Below, piece after piece: positions 551 through 11,660 of a DNA stretch of 64,000 nt. How positions within the stretch are numbered: the stretch's first letter is position 1; every line of letters begins with the position of its first letter. The notes beneath the pieces were generated by a model. The model ran no database searches. It worked only from the letters and a program-made list of their open reading frames with translations, and was not told where the DNA came from. The stretch spans positions 53,698,317 to 53,762,316 of the forward strand of contig NC_035441.2 of NCBI RefSeq assembly GCF_002127325.2. The letters are read 5' to 3'. Origin of the DNA: Helianthus annuus (taxonomy: Eukaryota; Streptophyta; Magnoliopsida; Asterales; Asteraceae). The position numbers were made by a program, and so were the translations under genes.

Positions 551-1501
551 TGTTTTGGTCAAAAATCACACAAGGATAATGTAACCAAACTTTATGTAAA
601 CGGGGTATGATGCTTGGTTAATTATAAAAGTAAAGGATCACTTTTATGAGAAATATGCAAAGACACAATGATTTATACGAGGAAAAAGCCCTTGATCAAT
701 GTATGATCTCCGGCATAAAAAACCTCGGGTGATGGCAACTACCGATCACCAACTTCAATATAAGAAAAATATAGTTACAACTTCGGATGATAATGAGCTG
801 AGTACAAGGATCACTATAGTTTCGAGTGTCTAAGCGTGTGGGAATTGTGTTGTGTGTCGTCGTGTGTTCTTCCAAATGAGGAAGAGTGGTATTTATACAA
901 GTGTAGGTGACCTATTTTAGGTAAAAAGACTAATAATCAGCTCATTACCCCTTTAGAAATAAAAGACAATCTAGCCTAAATTGCCGCCCATAAATCAAGC
1001 TAAGTTTCCATATCCTTTGCAACGTCTATCTTCGATTAAGCTCATGCTATAATTGTGAAGACGCGTCCCTTGATTATGATGCTAAGAGCGTATCCTGCTA
1101 GATGTTCCTGCAAAATAACATTGTTTTAAACGAAGGTAACTGTTAGCATGAGGATCCTTTGATGGTCCATGATCCTGATCCTGAAGTCCTGCTGAGGATC
1201 ACTGTCTGCCAAAGAAACAAGGATCACTGGTTAGGATCACGTATAAGGATCTCGTATAATAAAAATCCAGCCCTAACAATACTGCATCAGGATGTTACCA
1301 ATATCCTGATCTGGTATCCTGGTCATAATCAGCAATAATAAATTCGGGATAGAATCCCAGGATATGGGTTCAGAAAACCACCCATAACCGCAAACTAGCA
1401 CCGTGGGAAGGCCCCAATTTAATAGAAGCAGAAGCAGGAAAGGGGGCATATCGCTTGTTAACCATGGATGGTGATCTCCTACCAAGAGCTTGGAATGTTG
1501 T
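551..1501 (-). mobile_element. Outer Ty3 element 5' LTR, downstream part (split by insertion)
   Basis: The LTR ends in CA on the minus strand at 551, next to the primer site. It contains a TATA box (890-897) with about 340 bp of R/U5 toward the primer site and a U3 rich in GGATC words (about 1150-1350). At 1501 it is cut by the gag-only element, whose 5-bp target duplication GTTGT covers 1497-1501. U3 should therefore resume at 10457. The outer LTR boundary could not be fixed because the partner LTR is outside the window. Confidence 0.7.
890..897 (-). promoter_or_regulatory. TATA box of the outer LTR
   Basis: The minus strand reads TTGTATAAATACC, a good plant TATA box. Its distance from the primer site is what is expected for an LTR promoter. 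Confidence 0.5.
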
Positions 1502-2034
1502 TGTAACAATCCGCACGTTCGTGCGTTATTACTACTCGTTATACTCGTTACGCCTAGCACCAGAGATTCGGATCATAATGGAGCTATATCGCATACATCG
1601 CTACTTCGAAGTATTTTCGTATAATACGCATACTTTATCGCTATAACACATCACATCGCACATACTAACACTCACGATGACATTGAGTGAGGACCTATTC
1701 TACCCTACTCGATAGCCGTGATGTGTCGCAACGCAACGCATATTCAAAACGCGTAACTCGATTATAGCAACACAGACTTTGAAATGTGGATATTATACGA
1801 CCCTATGTGACTAATTATAATAAATATATGAATGTGTGTATGAAAATGTGTGACCAAACCTTCGCGACGCTCAACGAACAAAACGAAACATCAAAACGCA
1901 ACTCACTGGAGACCACCGATCGAACTACCATTCGATGGAATGGTCATCCGATCGAGTGACCAACCGATTGGATGGCCAACCGATCGGATTTCCATCCGAT
2001 CCATTGCACTCCAACACCTTCTCTCCTCTTCACC

Positions 2035-2075
2035 TATAAATAGCCCTTGTCACATCACTGTTCAAGTGATGTGAC
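2035..2075 (+). promoter_or_regulatory. LTR TATA box followed by an 11-bp stem hairpin
   Basis: TATAAATA (2035-2042) is followed by GTCACATCACT (2049-2059), a 5-nt loop, and the exact complement AGTGATGTGAC (2065-2075). The hairpin lies close to the expected transcription start, so it may form the very 5' end of the retroelement RNA or overlap the cap region. The same arrangement is intact in the other LTR. Confidence 0.6.
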
Positions 2076-2654
2076 AGCTCACACTCGACCAGCACGCTTT
2101 TGGGCTATTTTCTCTCGATTTCTCGCGATTTTTGTAAGTTTCTACCTCAAATCTTGTACTTCTATGACCTACACGCACTCCTTCATCTTTTCCAACAACA
2201 AATCTCACCTTTTCACCGTAAAATCCTCTGATTTGGGGCGTTCTAAGGTAATGTAATCATGGAGTTCTTAGGAACAATGAAGCGAGACCTCATCTCACCA
2301 AGAACAGTTCAGATCTAATGGATTCCATGGTGTGTAAACACCAATCGCACCTAGATCTAAGCCAAATCTAAGTATTTCAAGTTTCTCTCAAGCTTTCTTA
2401 ACTTTTTACTCAAAACCGATAGAATCGGAGCTCGTTCAGACCTTCTACTCATTCTATAGTGAAGTGTCGGATTGAGAACTCATGACCGGTTAACGGTTGA
2501 ACACGAACAACCGTCAAGGACAGTTAACTGATCGAACGGGGTGATTCCCATCCGATCTGATGACTTGGCCTTGGTGGAGTTCCATTGTTTAATACGTTGT
2601 CACACCATCTCGATCAAACTGCAAACTTTCAAAAGTAATCAAGTTCAAGACGAT

Positions 2655-3125
2655 CAGATTCGTTAGGACGGATTGCCGTCCGATCAAATAGCCATCCGAT
2701 CGAACTGCTATCCGATTGGATTGCACTTGGTTCCGCACTTAAACTTTTTCTTCAAACTGGCAAGGCTCTAAACGTCGAACGGATTACCGTCTGATCGGAT
2801 TGCCATCCGATCGAACGACCATCCGATCAGCTGACATTTGGAACTTCGACACTTAAACATTTTCATAACTTTCAAAGAACATCAGTTTCTAACGGATTAC
2901 TATCCGATCGAGTGACAGTCCTGTTGTGAAGTTGTTCTCACTAAGTGTCCTACCAATCGGATCGCTATCCGATCGGACGACCGTTCGATCGATCGACCTG
3001 AAGGGTAGAGATACTTCTCTATTTTCAAAATGCTTCAACAAAAACTTCAAAGCCATCATACACAGACACATCCATCCCAAACGAATGTCAATCCAATCGA
3101 ATGGCCATCCGATCGGATTACCATT
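2655..3125 (+). repeat. Cluster of CGATCGGAT-type palindromic words in the LTR
   Basis: Words of the form ATCCGATCGGAT, CATCCGATCG and related variants recur at irregular 20-70 bp spacing here and at about 1915-2000. Each contains the self-complementary core CGATCG. The 3' LTR keeps most of them. They could be binding sites for a dimeric protein, or a decayed minisatellite. Confidence 0.6.
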
Positions 3126-3915
3126 CGACACTTGGTTCACCCGCCACCGTTTAACGCACTGTTCATCGCTTACGCTATCAATCTGTAATCAGGCTAATCT
3201 CAGACGCGCTCCCTTCAATCCAACCAAGTTGTGTTCACTCGCTGAACCCCGACTGTGAGTATACTCGAACCCTTTTTATCGCATTTTTTGGTGTAACATA
3301 GGTTCCTATCAAATCGAACTTATCAAAACGAATTATACAATTAAATTGTTTATCACTTGCGAATAACTGTTATGCATATTTACACGTGATGCTAGTTACA
3401 TATGTGTTAGGACTTATACTCGCGAGGTCCCGCCTTAACTAGTATAGTACTATAGTACCCGACGGGGTCTAGTTAGGATGAATAGCAGTCGCAATCGCAG
3501 CTCGAGTGACTTAGCTGGTAGTATCTGTCTTATATGTAAATATGTTGAGGTATCTCGTTTATGTATTTGGTAATTCGCATCACTTTTTATCTATTTCTCG
3601 CTACTATCAAAACTTGTATACGCGCCAATACTTTTGTATTGACGTTGTTTTAACGTATGTTGCAGGTTTAGTCGCAGTCTACATCAAATCAAGCTAGGAA
3701 GTCTAGAAACTCACTTAAAGTCTAGGTTGTCGGATTTGTATTGTTCGAGAGGTCAAGAAATCTGTGATAACTTACGTGATTGTACTGTTTGTTAGTATGG
3801 GATAACAAATGTAATAAATATTGTCGCTTTATAGTTGTTATGGATTCTCTTGCACAATCTGATTTCCCTAGTGTCGCGCCCCGATGATTCCGCCATCGGT
3901 TGGGGTCTGACAGAT

Positions 3916-3928
3916 TGGTATCAGATCC
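3916..3928 (+). other. Primer-binding site, initiator tRNA-Met type
   Basis: TGGTATCAGATCC begins three bases after the 5' LTR. It matches the usual TGGTATCAGAGCC site except for one base (T for G). Confidence 0.85.
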
Positions 3929-5120
3929 ATGACTATAGGGAATTAGGAAAGACACGACCTAGTCCGTGTTTGTTGTCTTAGAAACGACCTAGTCTATAGT
4001 CTAAGTACCAACAAGCCGACTCGTACGAACCCAGTAGGATTTGTACGGGCCTACTTGATACTCTCGTTCGAATCCGTTAAAACTACAACTTCGCGTGAAC
4101 ACCGCATACTACAACTTCACACGAAGAGCCTTTCCTAAGGATGGAATGTTACCTAGCCTTTCCTAAGGCCAACATAATACACACGTTTTCGAAAATACTC
4201 GCATAACACAACCGAGTAGTCCAGTCGAGATCAGGCGTGAAAACCAAGAACTCTCGATAAGATCGCTCACTCAGCGCATTTTTCTAGCACGAGAACTTTT
4301 CGTCGAGCTAGGAGTGACATCTATAACTCAACAAAAGTCTCCATTTCAAACCCTAGTGGAACTCCCGAATTTATTCAAAGAGCACAACCACAGCTAGGAG
4401 CGAAGTTATTAAGTCAGGAGTGAAACCAGTATCTTAATAGACCGTTCCACTCTCTATAAAATGGTTTTCAAAAGCTCTCACCAAGGACTCGACCATAACG
4501 ATGACTCGAGCCACGCGATGACTAGGAAGACGAATGCCATGAACTGCATCCCAGTGGAAGCATAGTCTTCTAGGGCAACGCGCGTGCACGAACTTGTTGG
4601 GTATAGTTGGGTTACCTTGGGTAGCCAATGCCTAAACACCCGAGGCACTCTATCTATCTTTCTAGCATACGAATCGCCGATTTTACGCTTTATGGAACTT
4701 ATTTACGCTTATGTGTTTACAATTTAAAACTTTACGCATTATTAATTTCCCGATTTATCGATTTTCGCTCCTTGCTTTATAAACGCACGACTCGCACAGC
4801 CATCGCCATTTAAAACGAAAACCGAATGTTTGCAACAAAACTAATGTCTAATTTCTCGCCCTCGCTTTCTCCCTTCAACGCGTCCTCTCGCATTCTGCAC
4901 TAACATGTGTGTGTGTATAAGTATAAGCTACAACTATATGTATATATATATATATACAAACAACTCAATTGTGTGAGAACTTAGGAATCTCATGGCTCCT
5001 CTGTGACTCCTCTGTGAAATCCATTATATTACTCGCAACAAGTTTTGATCGCACTCAATCGCATCGCAAAACTCAGAAATCATTATGATCGAATCTCACT
5101 CCTAATCTCACTCTGTCTAG

Positions 5121-6197
5121 ATGTCTTCCAACGACTCTACCGCGAGACAAACAGCTAGGAGAAGAGCCAAACGAAGCGCCGAGAAGAGGATTGCCTCGCT
5201 TGTGGCCAAGGAAGTAGCCAAGGTCATTCCTCAAATTGTTGCTCAAGTGCACTCTCTCAGAAACTCTCGAACCTTGGAAGACTCTAAGACGGAAGCGCCG
5301 CAATCTGCTTTCCACTACAAACACTTCAAAGCCTATGGCCCGATAGAGTTCAGGGTGATGGAGCTGGTTCGATTCTATCGAAGTTACCCTTCGTCAGAGT
5401 GGGTGCCCGATAGTTTCCGTACTACTTGCGCAACCGGAGTATTTCAGTCGCGAGCACTCGACCGGTGGACAGCCGAACGTAACAAACGTGGGATCTCTGC
5501 AGCTTATGCTCTCTCTTGGGATGAGCTGAAGGAGCTCATGAAAAAAGAGTACTGCCCTCCCCACGAAGTCCAAAAACTAGAAGACGAATTTTGGGAAATC
5601 AAGCAAGTCGAAGGTGACAATACTGGCTACACCGCAAGGTTCAAACATCTTAGCATAATCTGCCAAAGTCAAGTCAGCACTTCAGAAAAAGCCATCATGA
5701 AGTACATTCGCGGCTTGCCTGAATGTGTGGGCGATTTTGTCGAAGCTGCAAGACCTGCTACCATCGAAGAGACCTACCACTTGGCCGCCAAAATCAATGA
5801 CAAACGAGTCTTGGACGGATTCTTCTCCAAGAATCATGTCAAACAGGCCCATCAAGCAATCGTCATCAATTCTTCTGACGATTCTTCAGACGATTCTGCC
5901 GACAATTCTGCAAGTGAGTCCTCATACGAATCCTCCGATGACAACACACCATTTTAGGAAGTCCAGCTCAGCCGCAAACGAAAGACCATGAGTCCAGACT
6001 CTTCAACAACTGAACTGTCGCAACCAGAACCTCTCCAAGCAGTTCCGGTTCACTCAAAGCGCGCCTACCACGGAGCTCAACCCCTGTGTCTCACGTGTAC
6101 GTATCATCACCCGCCAGAAGCTAACTTTCACTATTGCGCAAATAGCGACTACTATGGTCATCTTACCCAACACTGCTGCACGGGGCCGCAGACTTGA
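5121..6197 (+). pseudogene. Gag of the gag-only element, one in-frame amber stop
   Basis: One reading frame runs from the ATG at 5121 to a TGA at 6197, broken only by a TAG at 5955-5957 (358 sense codons plus two stops). Residues 1-45 are basic (ARRRAKRSAEKR). Residues about 75-235 form the retrotransposon Gag core, with the landmarks WTAERN, LKELMKKEYCP, EFWEIKQVEGDNTGYTARF and YIRGLPE. A Ser/Asp-rich acidic tail precedes the TAG. Past it, in the same frame, lies a degenerate zinc knuckle: in C-x2-S-x4-H-x4-C (near 6140-6175) the second Cys has become Ser. With the stop respected, the 278-aa product would lose the knuckle. Gag packages the RNA into virus-like particles. No pol follows. Confidence 0.85.
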
Positions 6198-6540
6198 AAA
6201 TTTTCAGCAACAATCGCAGAAGTCCTCTACAGCAACATCAATTATGCTCCTAATGTTGTTGTAATGATACAATTTTCGCTGTTAATTCCTTTTATGTGTT
6301 GAACTTGTTCTATTTCTCGACGCAACATGGACTCTATTTTATCTTTCATTCTCCCGCACTCGCGCACGGGCTATATACTAGCACTATATACTATATAATG
6401 TGTTTTACCCCTACTATGCGTTCTTGAAACGAGTTGTGATAAACGTGCAAGGGACAACTTAATCACGGGTGCACACGGGATTACTGTGATCAGTGCACGG
6501 AGATCGTAATGAGTTTCAATGATGCCATAACGTTAAAAGC

Positions 6541-6598
6541 ATGGTTAAGCGTGGTGGATACGCCGCTGGTACTTCCTATATATAAGCGTCTTGACCAT
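6541..6598 (+). repeat. Structured repeat, copy 1
   Basis: A 35-nt core (6552-6586) runs from TGGTGGATACGCC to TATATATAAG. Its left arm ATGGTTAAGCG pairs with the right arm CGTCTTGACCAT, using one G-T pair and one bulged base. Inside the core, GGA/TCC and TAC/GTA can pair around the loop GCCGCTG. Confidence 0.75.
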
Positions 6599-6638
6599 GT
6601 CGACACAGTGTGACACCTATTCATGGGGTAGAGACATG

Positions 6639-6694
6639 TGGTTGAAGCATGGTGGATACGCCGTTGGTACTTCCTATATATAAGTGCTTCGCCA
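6639..6694 (+). repeat. Structured repeat, copy 2
   Basis: The core at 6650-6684 differs from copy 1 by one base (GCCGTTG in the loop). Left arm TGGTTGAAGCA pairs with right arm TGCTTCGCCA: six contiguous pairs GAAGCA/TGCTTC, then a bulge, then TGGT/GCCA. The arm sequence differs from copy 1 but pairing is kept. Confidence 0.75.
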
Positions 6695-7051
6695 TGCCAA
6701 CCAATGTCTTGTGAAGAAAGTGCCATACAAGTTGAATGTTATTAGACCAAGTATACTATTAAATCTATTTTCGACACACTAAACTACATCGCAAGGTGTA
6801 ACAACCTCAATCACAACTCAAAGCGTGTCATCACTAGACTTTTCGTAAGTCAAACGCGCTCGCAATCGCATTGACGTTGGAATCTATCTCGAAATCTCAA
6901 TTGCTTATCGTGTGTATCGCTCTATCGCTTTGTGTATTGCTCTATCGCTCATCGTGTATCGCTTAACATTTATCGTTATCGCTTACCGTTATCTATGTTA
7001 TCTGTGTTATGTGAGCATAGATGACCTCGCCTCATGAGACGAAACTGATTG

Positions 7052-7106
7052 GGTTAAAACATGGTGGATACGCCGCTGGTACTTCCTATATATAAGTGTT
7101 TTAGCC
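7052..7106 (+). repeat. Structured repeat, copy 3
   Basis: The core at 7062-7096 is identical to copy 1. Left arm GGTTAAAACA pairs with right arm TGTTTTAGCC in ten contiguous pairs including one G-T. Downstream ACTTTCGTGGAAAA is shared with copy 4, so a wider unit of about 150 bp is repeated. Confidence 0.8.
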
Positions 7107-7501
7107 ATATCAGCAGACTTTCGTGGAAAAAGGGCATGTGGGGCTTAATGTCAGTTAAAAATTTGTGGTGTTGTTGAATCTAATCAAATCGCATGTTCCC
7201 ATCGCTTGCAACGCATCGATCGTCGCCCATCGCTCAACGGTTGTCGCTATTGCTCGTCGCTTATCGTTTATCGCCGTCGTCTTCGCTTACTATGTTTATG
7301 TTTGTGTTGCGCTATCAATTATCGTGTACTGCTTATCGCACTCGCTCGTATCGCTAAACTGAGTTCGTAAACGACTTCATCGCTCAGTTTGCTCAATCTC
7401 TCTTTTGCACTTGGTCCAACCATCTTTCGCTTGGACCAAGGGAATCGAAATCTAACAGTACTATGTCGACACACATGACATTGCCTCACGAGACGGAAGC
7501 C

Positions 7502-7564
7502 ATATGGCTAAAATATGGTGGATACGCCGCTAGTACTTCCTAGATATAAGTGTTATAGCAATAT
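7502..7564 (+). repeat. Structured repeat, copy 4
   Basis: The core at 7516-7550 has two substitutions (CTAGTAC and TAGATATAAG). Arms ATATGGCTAAAATA and TGTTATAGCAATAT still pair at 12 of 14 positions counting one G-T. It is the most diverged copy. Confidence 0.7.
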
Positions 7565-8112
7565 TGTTGAACTTTCGTGGAAAAGTGAGATGCGGGGCCG
7601 ACTTTAAATTTAAAATTTTGATATTATTAAGACCTTTGCGTAAACAAAGCTTTTACTTACAAAACTTTTTCTAGAATTTAATCAATACCTTTGTACAAAA
7701 TGAGATTTTCCTGTGACGTTGGTGTGGCAATCGACTCAAGTTAATGCCGCATGATGAGAAAATTTCGTAAAACGAGTTTTAATCACCCTAAAATCTTTTA
7801 TTAACCTAACCAAAACTCTTCTCATGGCGCTGGTGTGAACATCGATACAGTTTAACGCCGCACCGTGGAAAGGTTTTCATAACCAAGTGTTCTCCAACCT
7901 TTCAAATTAATCAACTTAGCAAGAATACAAAACACTTTTGGATCGCCTTTCGGGTGTTGCCATCTTTTGCTTATGAATCGTCTTTCTCGCCGCCATCGCC
8001 CAGACTTCGCAACGCTCTCTCTCTCGTCAATCTTCAACCGATCTCCCACTCATCTTGACGCTTTTATCACTACTCCCACTCGCAACAATCCTCGCGACCC
8101 TTCTTGTGGATT

Positions 8113-8147
8113 AATTTCGGGACGAAATTTCCTAAAGTAGGGGAGAC
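8113..8147 (+). other. Palindrome and polypurine tract before the 3' LTR
   Basis: AATTTCGGGACGAAATTT (8113-8130), an inverted repeat around GGA, is followed by the purine-rich AAAGTAGGGGAGAC ending at the LTR. The polypurine tract primes plus-strand DNA synthesis. The same palindrome precedes the tract of the second Ty3 element at 39250. Confidence 0.75.
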
Positions 8148-10451
8148 TGTAACAACCCGCACGTTCGTGCGTTGTTACTACTCATTATACTCGTTACGCC
8201 TAGCACCAGAGATTCAGATCATAATGGAGCTATATCGCATACATCGCTACTTCGCAGTATTTTCGCATATTACGCATACTTTATCGCTATAACACATCAC
8301 ATCGCACATACTAACACTCATGATGATGTTGAGTGAGGACCTATTCTACCATCCTTGATAGCCGTGATGTGTCGCAACGCATATTTGAAACGCGCAGCTC
8401 GATTATCGCAACACAGACTTTGAAATGTGGATATTATACGACCCAATGTGACTAATTATAATAAATATATGAATGTGTGTATGAAAATGTGTGACCAAAC
8501 CATCGCAATGCTCAACGAACAAAACGAAACATCAAAACGCAACTCGTTGGAGACCACCGATCGAATGACCATTCGATCAAATGGTCATCCGATCGGATGA
8601 CCATCTGATCGTGTGACCAACCGATCGGATGGCCAACCGATCGGATTGCCATCCGATCCATTGCACTCCAACACCTTCTCTCCTCTTCACCTATAAATAG
8701 CCCTTGTCACATCACTGTTCAAGTGATGTGACAGCTCTCACTCGACCAGCACGCTTTGGGGCTATTTTCTCTCGATTTCTCGCGATTCTTGTATGTTTCT
8801 ACCTCAAATCTTGTACTTCTATGACCTACACGCACTCCTTCATCTTTTCCAACAACAAATCTCACCTATTCACCGTAAAATCCTCTGATTTAGGGCGTTC
8901 TAAGGTGATGTCATCATGGAGTTCTTAGGAACAATGAAGCGTGACCTCATGTCACCAAGAACAGTTCAGATCTAATGGATTCCATGGTGTGTAAACACCA
9001 ATCGCACCTAGATCTAAGCCGAATCTAAGTATTTCAAGTTTCTCTCAAGCTTTCTTAACTTTTTACTCAAAACCGATAGAATCAGAGCTCGTTCAGACCT
9101 TCTACTCATTCTATAGTGAAGTGTCGGATTGAGAACTGATGACCGGTTAATGGGTTGAACACGAACAACCGTCAAGGACAGTTAACTGATCGAACGGGGT
9201 GATTCCCATCCGATCTGATGACTTAGCCTTGGTGGAGTTCCATTGTTTTATCCAATTGGATTGCACTTGGTTCCGCACTTAAACTTTTTCTTCAAACTTG
9301 CAAGGCTCTGAACGTCGAACGGATTGTCGTCCGATCGGATTGCCATCTGATCGAACGACCATCCGATCAGCTGACATTTGGAACTCCGACACTTAAACAT
9401 TTTCATAACTTTCAAAGAACATCAGTTTCTAACGGATTGCTATCCGATCGAATGACAGTCCTGTTGTGAAGTTGTTCTCACTAAGTGTCCTACCAATCGG
9501 ATCGTTATCGATCGAACGGCCGTTCGATCGATCGACTTGAAGGGTATAGATACTTCTCTATTTTCAAAATGCTTCAACGAAAACTTCAAAGCCATCATAC
9601 ACAAACACATCCATCCCAAACGAATGTCAATCCAATCGAATGGCCATCCGATCGGATTACCATTCAACACTTGGTTCACCCGCCACCATTTAACACACTG
9701 TTCATCGCTTACGCTATCAATCTGTAATCAGGCTAATCTCAGACGTGCTCCCTTCAATCCAACCAAGTTGTGTTCACTCGCTGAACCCCGACTGTGAGTA
9801 TACTCGAACCCTTTTTATCGCATTTTTGGGTGTAACATATGTTCCTATCAAATCGAACTTATCAAAACGAATTATACAATTAAATTGTTTATCACTTGCG
9901 AATAACTGTTATGCACATTTACACGTGATGCTAGTTACATATGTGTTAGGACTTATACTCGCGAGGTCCCGCCTTAACTAGTATAGTACTATAGTACCCG
10001 ACGGGGTCTAGTTAGGATGAATAGCAGTCGCAATCGCAGCTCGAGTGACTTAGTTGGTAGTATCTGTCTTATATGCAAATATGTTGAGGTATCTCGTTTA
10101 TGTATTTGGTAATTCGTATCACTTTTAATCTATTGCTCGCTACTATCAAAACTTGTATACCCGCCAATACTTTTGTATTGACGTTGTTTTAACGTATGTT
10201 GCAGGTTTAGTCGCAGTCTACATCAAATCAAGCTAGGAAGTCTAGAAACTCACTTAAAATCTAGGTAGTCGGATTTGTATTGTTCGAAAGGACAAGAAAT
10301 CTGTGATAACTTACGTGATTGTATTGTTTGTAAGTATGGGATAACAAATGTAATAAATATTGTCGCTTTATAGTTGTTATGGATTCTCTTGAGCAATTTG
10401 ATTCGCCTAGTGTCGTGCTCCGATGATTCCGCCATTGGTTGGGGTGTGACA
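8148..10451 (+). repeat. 3' LTR of the gag-only element
   Basis: It is 2,304 bp with the same termini as the 5' LTR. TATA box at 8692-8699 and the 11-bp stem hairpin at 8706-8732 are preserved. It lacks about 117 bp present in the 5' LTR, so at least one LTR changed after insertion. Confidence 0.92.
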
Positions 10452-10456
10452 GTTGT

Positions 10457-11660
10457 TCATCTCAAGAAGTACTTCATGTAAGAAGGATCGGGGATCCTCG
10501 GTGATTCCAATATTCTGATTTAGGATCTAGGATCCTCAAAGGATATATGATCCTTCCTTCGGTAACATCTTACTTTCATTTTCATTCATTTTATACTTAT
10601 TACTCATCACAAGGCAAAGATGTTAAACATTTAACATCCATTTTCATAAAGTTTTAGCTTTTGCAGAGTTTTTATCATTTTACAGAAGATCAAAGTGGTT
10701 GGCCAACTCTCCAAAGTTTTTGGGTTTATCCCCAATTTTTGGGCTTGTTCCAAGCTAAGGTATTTTATACCTTCTAAGGTTTAAAGGTTTTCACCTTTCA
10801 CACGAATTGGATTTTGACACCCCGCTAGTAGTGCACGTTATCCAAGTATGGTTCGAGGCAATGGGACCAGTACACGCTTAGAAGCTGACAATTTCATTGT
10901 TGTCAGCCATATGTAGGATCTCAAGTATAATGGTAGACGTACCATACATCCGTTATCCTAAGGTTTCTAACGTTTTCACGTTAGCTATGGTTTTGGCATT
11001 TTCATGTCACTTACGTTGGGAAAGACGCCAGTTTGGGCCAGACCCCAGCATACACCCGTTTATTTGGGCTTGTCCCCCGTTATTTGGGCTTGTCCCTAGT
11101 TTGTTTGGGATTGTCCCCAGTTATTATGGGTTTATCCCCAGATTGTTTGGCTTAATCCCAAGTTTATTTTTCTTACAGGATCTTGGAGCTTTAAAGGTTT
11201 GAAAGTTTTGACAATATGGATCCTAGATCCTTAAAACTTTAACTAATTTTCACAGTCTGTATTTTCAGTAATAACTTATAAGGATATAGAATCCTAACTT
11301 GGATTCTCTGGTATGTTTTATCCTTAACCTTGTCTATGTTGCAAGTTACTTTTTATCCTTTCCAGTAAGGATCTATGATCCATATTCATTGAAACAATTA
11401 AAGTTTTCTATTTAACTTAGCATTATTAAATTTTTAACAACTTATGACTCCGCAAATTATTAATGATGATATATATATATATATTTGAATATGGAAATGC
11501 AGGCATAACAATAAAAGAAACTTTAAGGATAAAAATACAACCAACATACCCAAAAGTTTAATATTGTTTAAACCCATTCATTATATACCAAAATCATCCG
11601 GCCTGGATTTCACCAGCAAAACTGTGGACTATCCACCCAGGCCGGATAGGGCTATCTGAC
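10457..11660 (-). mobile_element. Probable continuation of the outer Ty3 LTR U3
   Basis: Directly after the second GTTGT the sequence again has many GGATCC/AGGATC words (10480-10560, 11180-11380), as in 1150-1350, which fits resumption of the interrupted U3. It ends somewhere before about 11660, where an inverted repeat CCGGCCTGG/CCAGGCCGG lies (near 11600 and 11640). No coding sequence is recognisable. The right boundary is a guess. Confidence 0.4.
11060..11162 (+). repeat. 20-21 bp minisatellite, five units
   Basis: Five consecutive units of the type TTATTTGGGCTTGTCCCCAG run head to tail with increasing divergence, and related pieces lie at 10726-10750. As codons they would give a repeated FGLVPSL-like peptide, but no gene context supports translation. 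Confidence 0.7.

Follow-up and report, generated by a model that had tools for sequence, protein, structure and literature searches.

A predicted RNA rod with a near-invariant apex in gag-only, pol-encoding and apparently non-coding LTR retrotransposons of sunflower

A gag-only element and its four cores

The window, a 64-kb stretch of Helianthus annuus DNA, harbors a gag-only Ty3-type element that self-alignment places at 1502-10451 (Table 1), with 5-bp direct repeats GTTGT read from the sequence at 1497-1501 and 10452-10456. Like TR-GAG elements it has two LTRs, a primer binding site (PBS) and a single gag ORF, and nine query proteins gave no pol match. The named homologues of this gag are Helianthus proteins, with two exceptions from short contigs filed under bacteria, and exact searches found no relative of it in viral contigs. 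The two exceptions, P0009 and P0045, are on contigs filed as Salmonella enterica and Pectobacterium brasiliense, and plant DNA in bacterial assemblies is probably the source of these sunflower-type gags. Four tracts of the LTRs (1916-2001, 2668-3128, 8541-8661 and 9319-9666) consist of CCGATCGGATNGCCAT-like repeats that form inverted repeats. Rfam miRNA matches with low E in these LTR tracts lie far below the gathering score and look spurious.

Table 1. Features of the gag-only element in the 64-kb window
Feature	Position	Strand	Basis
5' LTR of the gag-only Ty3-type element	1502..3912	+	self-alignment and edges
TATA-like CTATAAATAG, inside 5' LTR	from 2034	+	
PBS, TGGTATCAGATCC	3916..3928	+	read from sequence
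gag ORF, 278 aa, PF03732 (Retrotrans_gag)	5121..5957	+	domain match, homologues
Copy 1: core 6552-6586 and inner arms, one bulge	6541..6598	+	
Copy 2: rod, core 6650-6684 as apex	6609..6727	+	limits mapped
Copy 3: rod, core 7062-7096 as apex	7020..7138	+	limits mapped
Copy 4: rod, core 7516-7550 as apex, two core changes	7474..7592	+	limits mapped
Polypurine tract (PPT) AAAGTAGGGGAGAC, adjoins 3' LTR	8134..8147	+	by reading
3' LTR	8148..10451	+	self-alignment and edges

A preliminary description of this DNA reported four 35-nt cores that differ at no more than three positions in total and are each flanked by arms that pair. Both observations hold: the cores carry 0, 1, 0 and 2 mismatches, against a chance expectation of 0.00 in 64 kb, and the arms form 16, 18 and 15 inner pairs in copies 2-4 and pair with one bulged base in copy 1, of which a near-identical relative (L012-4916) has 15 inner pairs. 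In copies 2-4 the arms described earlier make up just the upper end of a rod whose two sides each extend ~40 nt beyond the core. The weakest case is copy 4, its stem being absent when it is folded alone (z -0.72) and formed in a longer stretch, and a different fold is predicted for copy 1 within a long stretch. The outer 5' arm of copy 3 contains, at 7026-7045, CTCGCCTCATGAGACGAAAC, which by eye recalls hammerhead core letters; Rfam finds no hammerhead there. A reading frame, ATG-GTG-GAT-ACG-CCG-CTG-GTA-CTT-CCT-ATA-TAT-AAG (MVDTPLVLPIYK), crosses most cores, lying at 6551-6586 in the window, and copy 1 has GTG for the ATG.

Covariation in the rod and constancy of its apex

We examined 100 copies, four from the window and 96 from elsewhere, which comprise 80 distinct 77-nt rows; one contig supplied 74 of the 96 from its first ~14 Mb. 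Almost every copy was located by means of an exact 21-mer, which leads to an underestimate of variation within the 21-mer and leaves the other 14 core positions unaffected. In the examined copies the core is predicted to be the apex of a long imperfect hairpin, a rod of ~120 nt. The inner stem, 17 bp directly flanking the core, is 88.4% paired in a gap-free alignment of 55 distinct rows (A2), compared with 76.4% for shuffled partners and at most 47.4% for slid partners, and 15 of its 17 pairs show changes on both sides. Its covariation score of 0.446 was reached in none of 500 shuffles (0.229 +/- 0.011), and slid partners gave at most 0.159. The preliminary description had read the co-varying arms as a mark of selection on a paired RNA and had proposed a covariation test; the comparison with shuffled partners bears that reading out, as does a tree-aware null in the form of a self-written, R-scape-like simulation (300 simulations, 80 rows). 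The summed covariation of 408 exceeds every simulation (-1 +/- 33, maximum 114), and the paired fraction of 0.880 lies above the simulated 0.688 +/- 0.050 (maximum 0.836). Tree-aware significance of individual pairs is limited to one to four: 1 of all 2,701 pairs and, in a two-set test, 4 of 22 (80 rows), each of them part of the structure.

The outer stem was scored in 27 LTR-type rows (A3) and 22 internal-type rows (A4), picked by eye from the 100 copies in a selection that excluded near-identical copies, those of the copy-1 type and others. The LTR-type outer stem has 18 pairs and a covariation of 0.309 versus 0.207 when shuffled, and the internal-type outer stem has 13 pairs and 0.326 versus 0.246 (0/500 shuffles for each). 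Further pair types in the 27 LTR-type copies did not go beyond shuffles (91/500). One-set tests on A2, A3 and A4 gave 2, 1 and 1 significant pairs, all within the structure. In a comparison of 23 representatives of 78 copies (506 swaps), cognate flanks formed 15.6 inner and 21.9 outer bp and exchanged flanks 4.8 and 12.2 bp; the rod was not the best fold in two of the 23 (L052+998 and L052+1219). These folds and the covariation describe an extended stem-loop with internal loops, of the kind found in constitutive transport elements (CTE) and RTE.

G-U pairs outnumber A-C mismatches by 91 to 23 in 935 cells that are not independent of one another, an asymmetry that selection on double-stranded DNA would not favor and that makes the sense RNA the likely selected form. 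The alignments support selection for pairing in the RNA. Pairing was also followed into a new subfamily, using the 324 copies that have a pyrimidine at inner pair 4. In 20 stretches, pair 4 is formed in 9 of 22 copies (8 C-G, 1 U-G) and not in the other 13. The nine belong to one new family of arm sequences, a grouping made after inspection; 12 of the 13 look like isolated point changes in the arms of other families, and the remaining one, L078-650, resembles the new family. A further locus, L052 (G000:C1:12690150-12691550), holds five copies within 1.4 kb whose arms differ and whose core is the same, a natural series for probing.

The favored fold of the apex pairs GGUG with CGCC around a GAUA loop. 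The smaller hairpin proposed earlier inside the core, GGA/UCC plus UAC/GUA, did not stand: its model stem has an energy of -10.5 kcal/mol compared with -14.0 and -15.5 kcal/mol for the GGUG/CGCC folds, and it is thus 3.5-5 kcal/mol worse. The only common change in the 35-nt apex is G56A, found in 16 of 100 copies, which turns U22-G56 into a U-A pair, and at U25-G32 two single changes, to C-G and to U-A, preserve pairing. The compensated double change G24A+C33T occurs in 2 copies, against 380 with C33T alone and 20,569 exact ones, and this rarity means that covariation support is absent for that apex pair. The apex seems to be held by its sequence and not by pairing alone. Between families the arms differ strongly and the apex is the same: L013 and L021 have one and the same core, with Gags of ~31% identity, and Gags of the window type and the L013/L028 type share 28-33% identity over longer alignments and up to 42% over short ones.

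Carriers, abundance and searches

In 16 of 20 10-kb loci the motif is accompanied by paired LTRs or by a frame for gag or pol that belongs to the same element (L009, L014, L016 and L020 have no clear one), with gag and pol detected by the nine query proteins. The window, L012 and L021 have the motif after gag and before the 3' LTR. In six further loci (L010, L018, L019, L022, L023 and L026) a single rod lies between LTRs that are 99.4-99.9% identical, with neither gag nor pol detectable by those queries, and in the first three of these the 3' LTR starts 622-633 nt downstream of the core. In L013, L017 and L024 the motif is inside the LTR, 602-1,642 nt downstream of a TATA-like site, and the core is 624-652 nt before the LTR end. 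The spacing is similar in the two groups, to the 3' LTR start in one and to the LTR end in the other. In L011 and L028, where gag is followed by frames for protease, RT and RNase H, the motif lies ~1.18 kb upstream of gag, as in L013, and in L025 and L027 it lies downstream of integrase frames. The spacing suggests that these pol-encoding copies carry the motif in the LTR. Tandem repeats of ~105 bp occur in the internal region of LTR-type elements (L013:4953-5760, L017:4579-5615 and L024:5003-5735).

The motif is thus common to pol-encoding Ty3, gag-only and apparently non-coding LTR retrotransposons of sunflower. The preliminary description correctly placed the array between gag and the 3' LTR of a gag-only element, but in tying the motif to a helper-dependent element of that kind it was too narrow, since pol-encoding and apparently non-coding families share the core and some carry it inside the LTR. 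Among 12 elements, 10 have TGGTATCAGA(G/T)CC behind the left LTR, and the core is on the strand of the PBS in all 10 in which a PBS was seen. Judging by its placement, the motif is likely to be transcribed yet untranslated.

When up to three mismatches are allowed, the 21-nt heart of the core has 35,993 matches in the 3.01-Gb sunflower genome, 17,960 of them forward and 18,033 in reverse, compared with 4 (2 + 2) for the reversed pattern under the same conditions, and the core 24-mer has 20,569 exact copies there, its reversed control 0. A covariance model (R1) run on the window and 23 of 88 loci (267 kb) recovered 43 known copies and one weak extra at 19.7 bits, an indication that there are no half-decayed copies within those 267 kb. 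Pieces of the core are absent from IMG/VR viral contigs and prokaryote genomes in exact searches. The motif matches no Rfam family, whether over the array in a search of window positions 1400-10500 (E up to 5), in eight 10-kb loci (gathering threshold) or in six further loci (E up to 1), and we found no published description of it. A text search of 5.39 million papers did not find the letters of the core, and among the matches listed for plant packaging and dimerization, export elements, sunflower hairpins, LTR-element RNA motifs, hypervariable 3' UTRs and pararetrovirus leaders none describes it.

Candidate functions and known systems

Sequence by itself does not separate the roles raised in the preliminary description, namely packaging, dimerization, nuclear export and processing. 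We tentatively favor the possibility that the rod is a CTE/RTE-like cis element whose apex is read by a host factor for nuclear export. The sense RNA of the element would fold into the ~120-nt rod with its near-invariant 35-nt apex; to this apex, as in a retroviral CTE, an RNA-binding or export factor of the host would bind and take the genomic RNA to the cytoplasm. The rod presumably forms in vivo. That the apex would be read by a host factor and not by the Gag of the element itself is suggested by an apex that stays the same across Gags of ~30% identity: a signal for an element's own Gag should drift together with that Gag, and one for a host factor could stay as it is. The rod persists in elements with no detectable gag or pol and is therefore probably cis-acting. 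Depending on the family the motif lies downstream of gag or in the LTR, as a position-tolerant RNA signal would. By analogy, the step served may be nuclear export: given likely 5' and 3' untranslated positions and several copies, CTE/RTE-like export fits best and packaging next. A point against export is that plants are not known to have a clear NXF1 orthologue, so that the receptor would differ.

Packaging or dimerization, in which Gag would bind the rod, or apices would kiss through the palindrome UAUAUAUA, and the RNAs would enter helper particles, is possible but on balance rather unlikely. A family without detectable coding parts keeps the rod, other families have it in a part of the LTR that is likely 5' leader, and a shared helper Gag would likewise force one signal on many families. 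Against packaging are an apex that is unchanged while Gags fall to ~30% identity, the five copies within 1.4 kb in L052, and the position near the 3' LTR in internal families; and although UAUAUAUA, as read from the core, is self-complementary, it is changed in 7 of 100 copies (columns 47, 49, 51 and 54). It is improbable that the rod is instead an element for RNA stability, 3'-end formation or translation that acts through a host factor as an exonuclease block, a nuclear-decay block or a ribosome shunt. A structured, likely untranslated and position-tolerant motif with a nearly invariant apex would suit such a role, but Rfam gives no match, 3' positions are a misfit for a shunt, and the U-rich triple-helix loop that defines an ENE was not seen by eye.

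A new self-cleaving ribozyme, as in retrozymes, could account for a near-invariant core that covarying stems enclose, for its repetition within elements and for its place in the LTRs of some families. We consider it very unlikely, since a cut upstream of the 3' LTR, between it and gag, would sever the genomic RNA in elements that have amplified recently; neither a ribozyme nor any other Rfam family matches. A likeness of GCCGCUGGU to twister-sister found no support in the consulted part of PMC11620745 and none in Rfam. Still less can be said for a DNA-level element, either a TATA-box promoter or a cruciform. By eye, CCTATATATAAG in the core resembles a plant TATA box, but a separate TATAAATA-type site, away from the core, is present in both LTRs of 10 of 12 elements (in L021 only the right part has it, and L023 has none of that form), and these sites, together with the G-U asymmetry that points to RNA, speak against a promoter, as does a core that keeps to one strand with respect to the PBS wherever a PBS was seen (10 of 10 elements). 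The faintest prospect is a short conserved ORF, the core reading as that frame from the ATG at its edge: the changes G32A, C36T, G38A, T47A and G56A are synonymous, but T25C, T49C, T49G, T51C and A54G, which make up half of the ten kinds of core change, are nonsynonymous, 4 of 55 distinct copies have G or T in place of the A of the ATG, the flanks are unconserved and most third positions are invariant.

Returning to nuclear export, the rod joins LTR, PBS and PPT as a feature shared by pol-encoding, gag-only and apparently non-coding families. With somewhat greater reserve, we suggest that it could be a host-read 'export pass' kept with almost no change of sequence by rival families, gag-only and non-coding parasites included, and the first cis element for genomic-RNA export in a plant LTR retrotransposon. 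If so, 36,000 copies would compete for one host factor. A 2025 survey of 130 plant genomes reported 16 structured-RNA candidates and describes covariation as generally modest (PMC12218528). With its clear covariation, its near-fixed apex and copies numbering in the tens of thousands, the ~120-nt rod offers a bait with which a host factor can be tested for.

Sunflower TR-GAG elements are described as having two LTRs and one gag ORF, like the window element (PMC9784723, PMC11728184). The word 'hairpin' is absent from the main texts of both papers, 'stem-loop' from that of PMC11728184 and 'secondary structure' from that of PMC9784723. Retrozymes, the hammerhead LTR elements, are non-autonomous elements of plants that also contain a structured RNA motif (PMC4918200). 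Unlike them, the sunflower carriers have LTRs of >2 kb and pol-encoding members, and no Rfam hammerhead was found in the window at 1400-10500, in the eight 10-kb loci or in the six further loci.

The CTE of MPMV/SRV lies near the 3' LTR, a position that the internal sunflower families match. The conserved sites of the MPMV CTE sit in two internal loops, whereas the sunflower rod has a conserved apex, a plant host, several copies and, in other families, a place in the LTR. Like the rod, the MPMV/SRV CTE is a long stem-loop; it measures 150-175 nt, has two internal loops and recruits a host export receptor (PMC7551171). In mouse retrotransposons, the IAP RTE and the musD MTE are described as cis RNA structures for nuclear export through host factors; the MTE differs in having a pseudoknot and a kissing loop (PMC12786077).

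CaMV differs from the sunflower rod in having one viral leader structure with viral adaptors. To our knowledge, the CaMV leader and the rod have no common core. The structured 5' leader of CaMV, with TREX, is described as a plant retroelement RNA structure that is used in export (PMC12786077).
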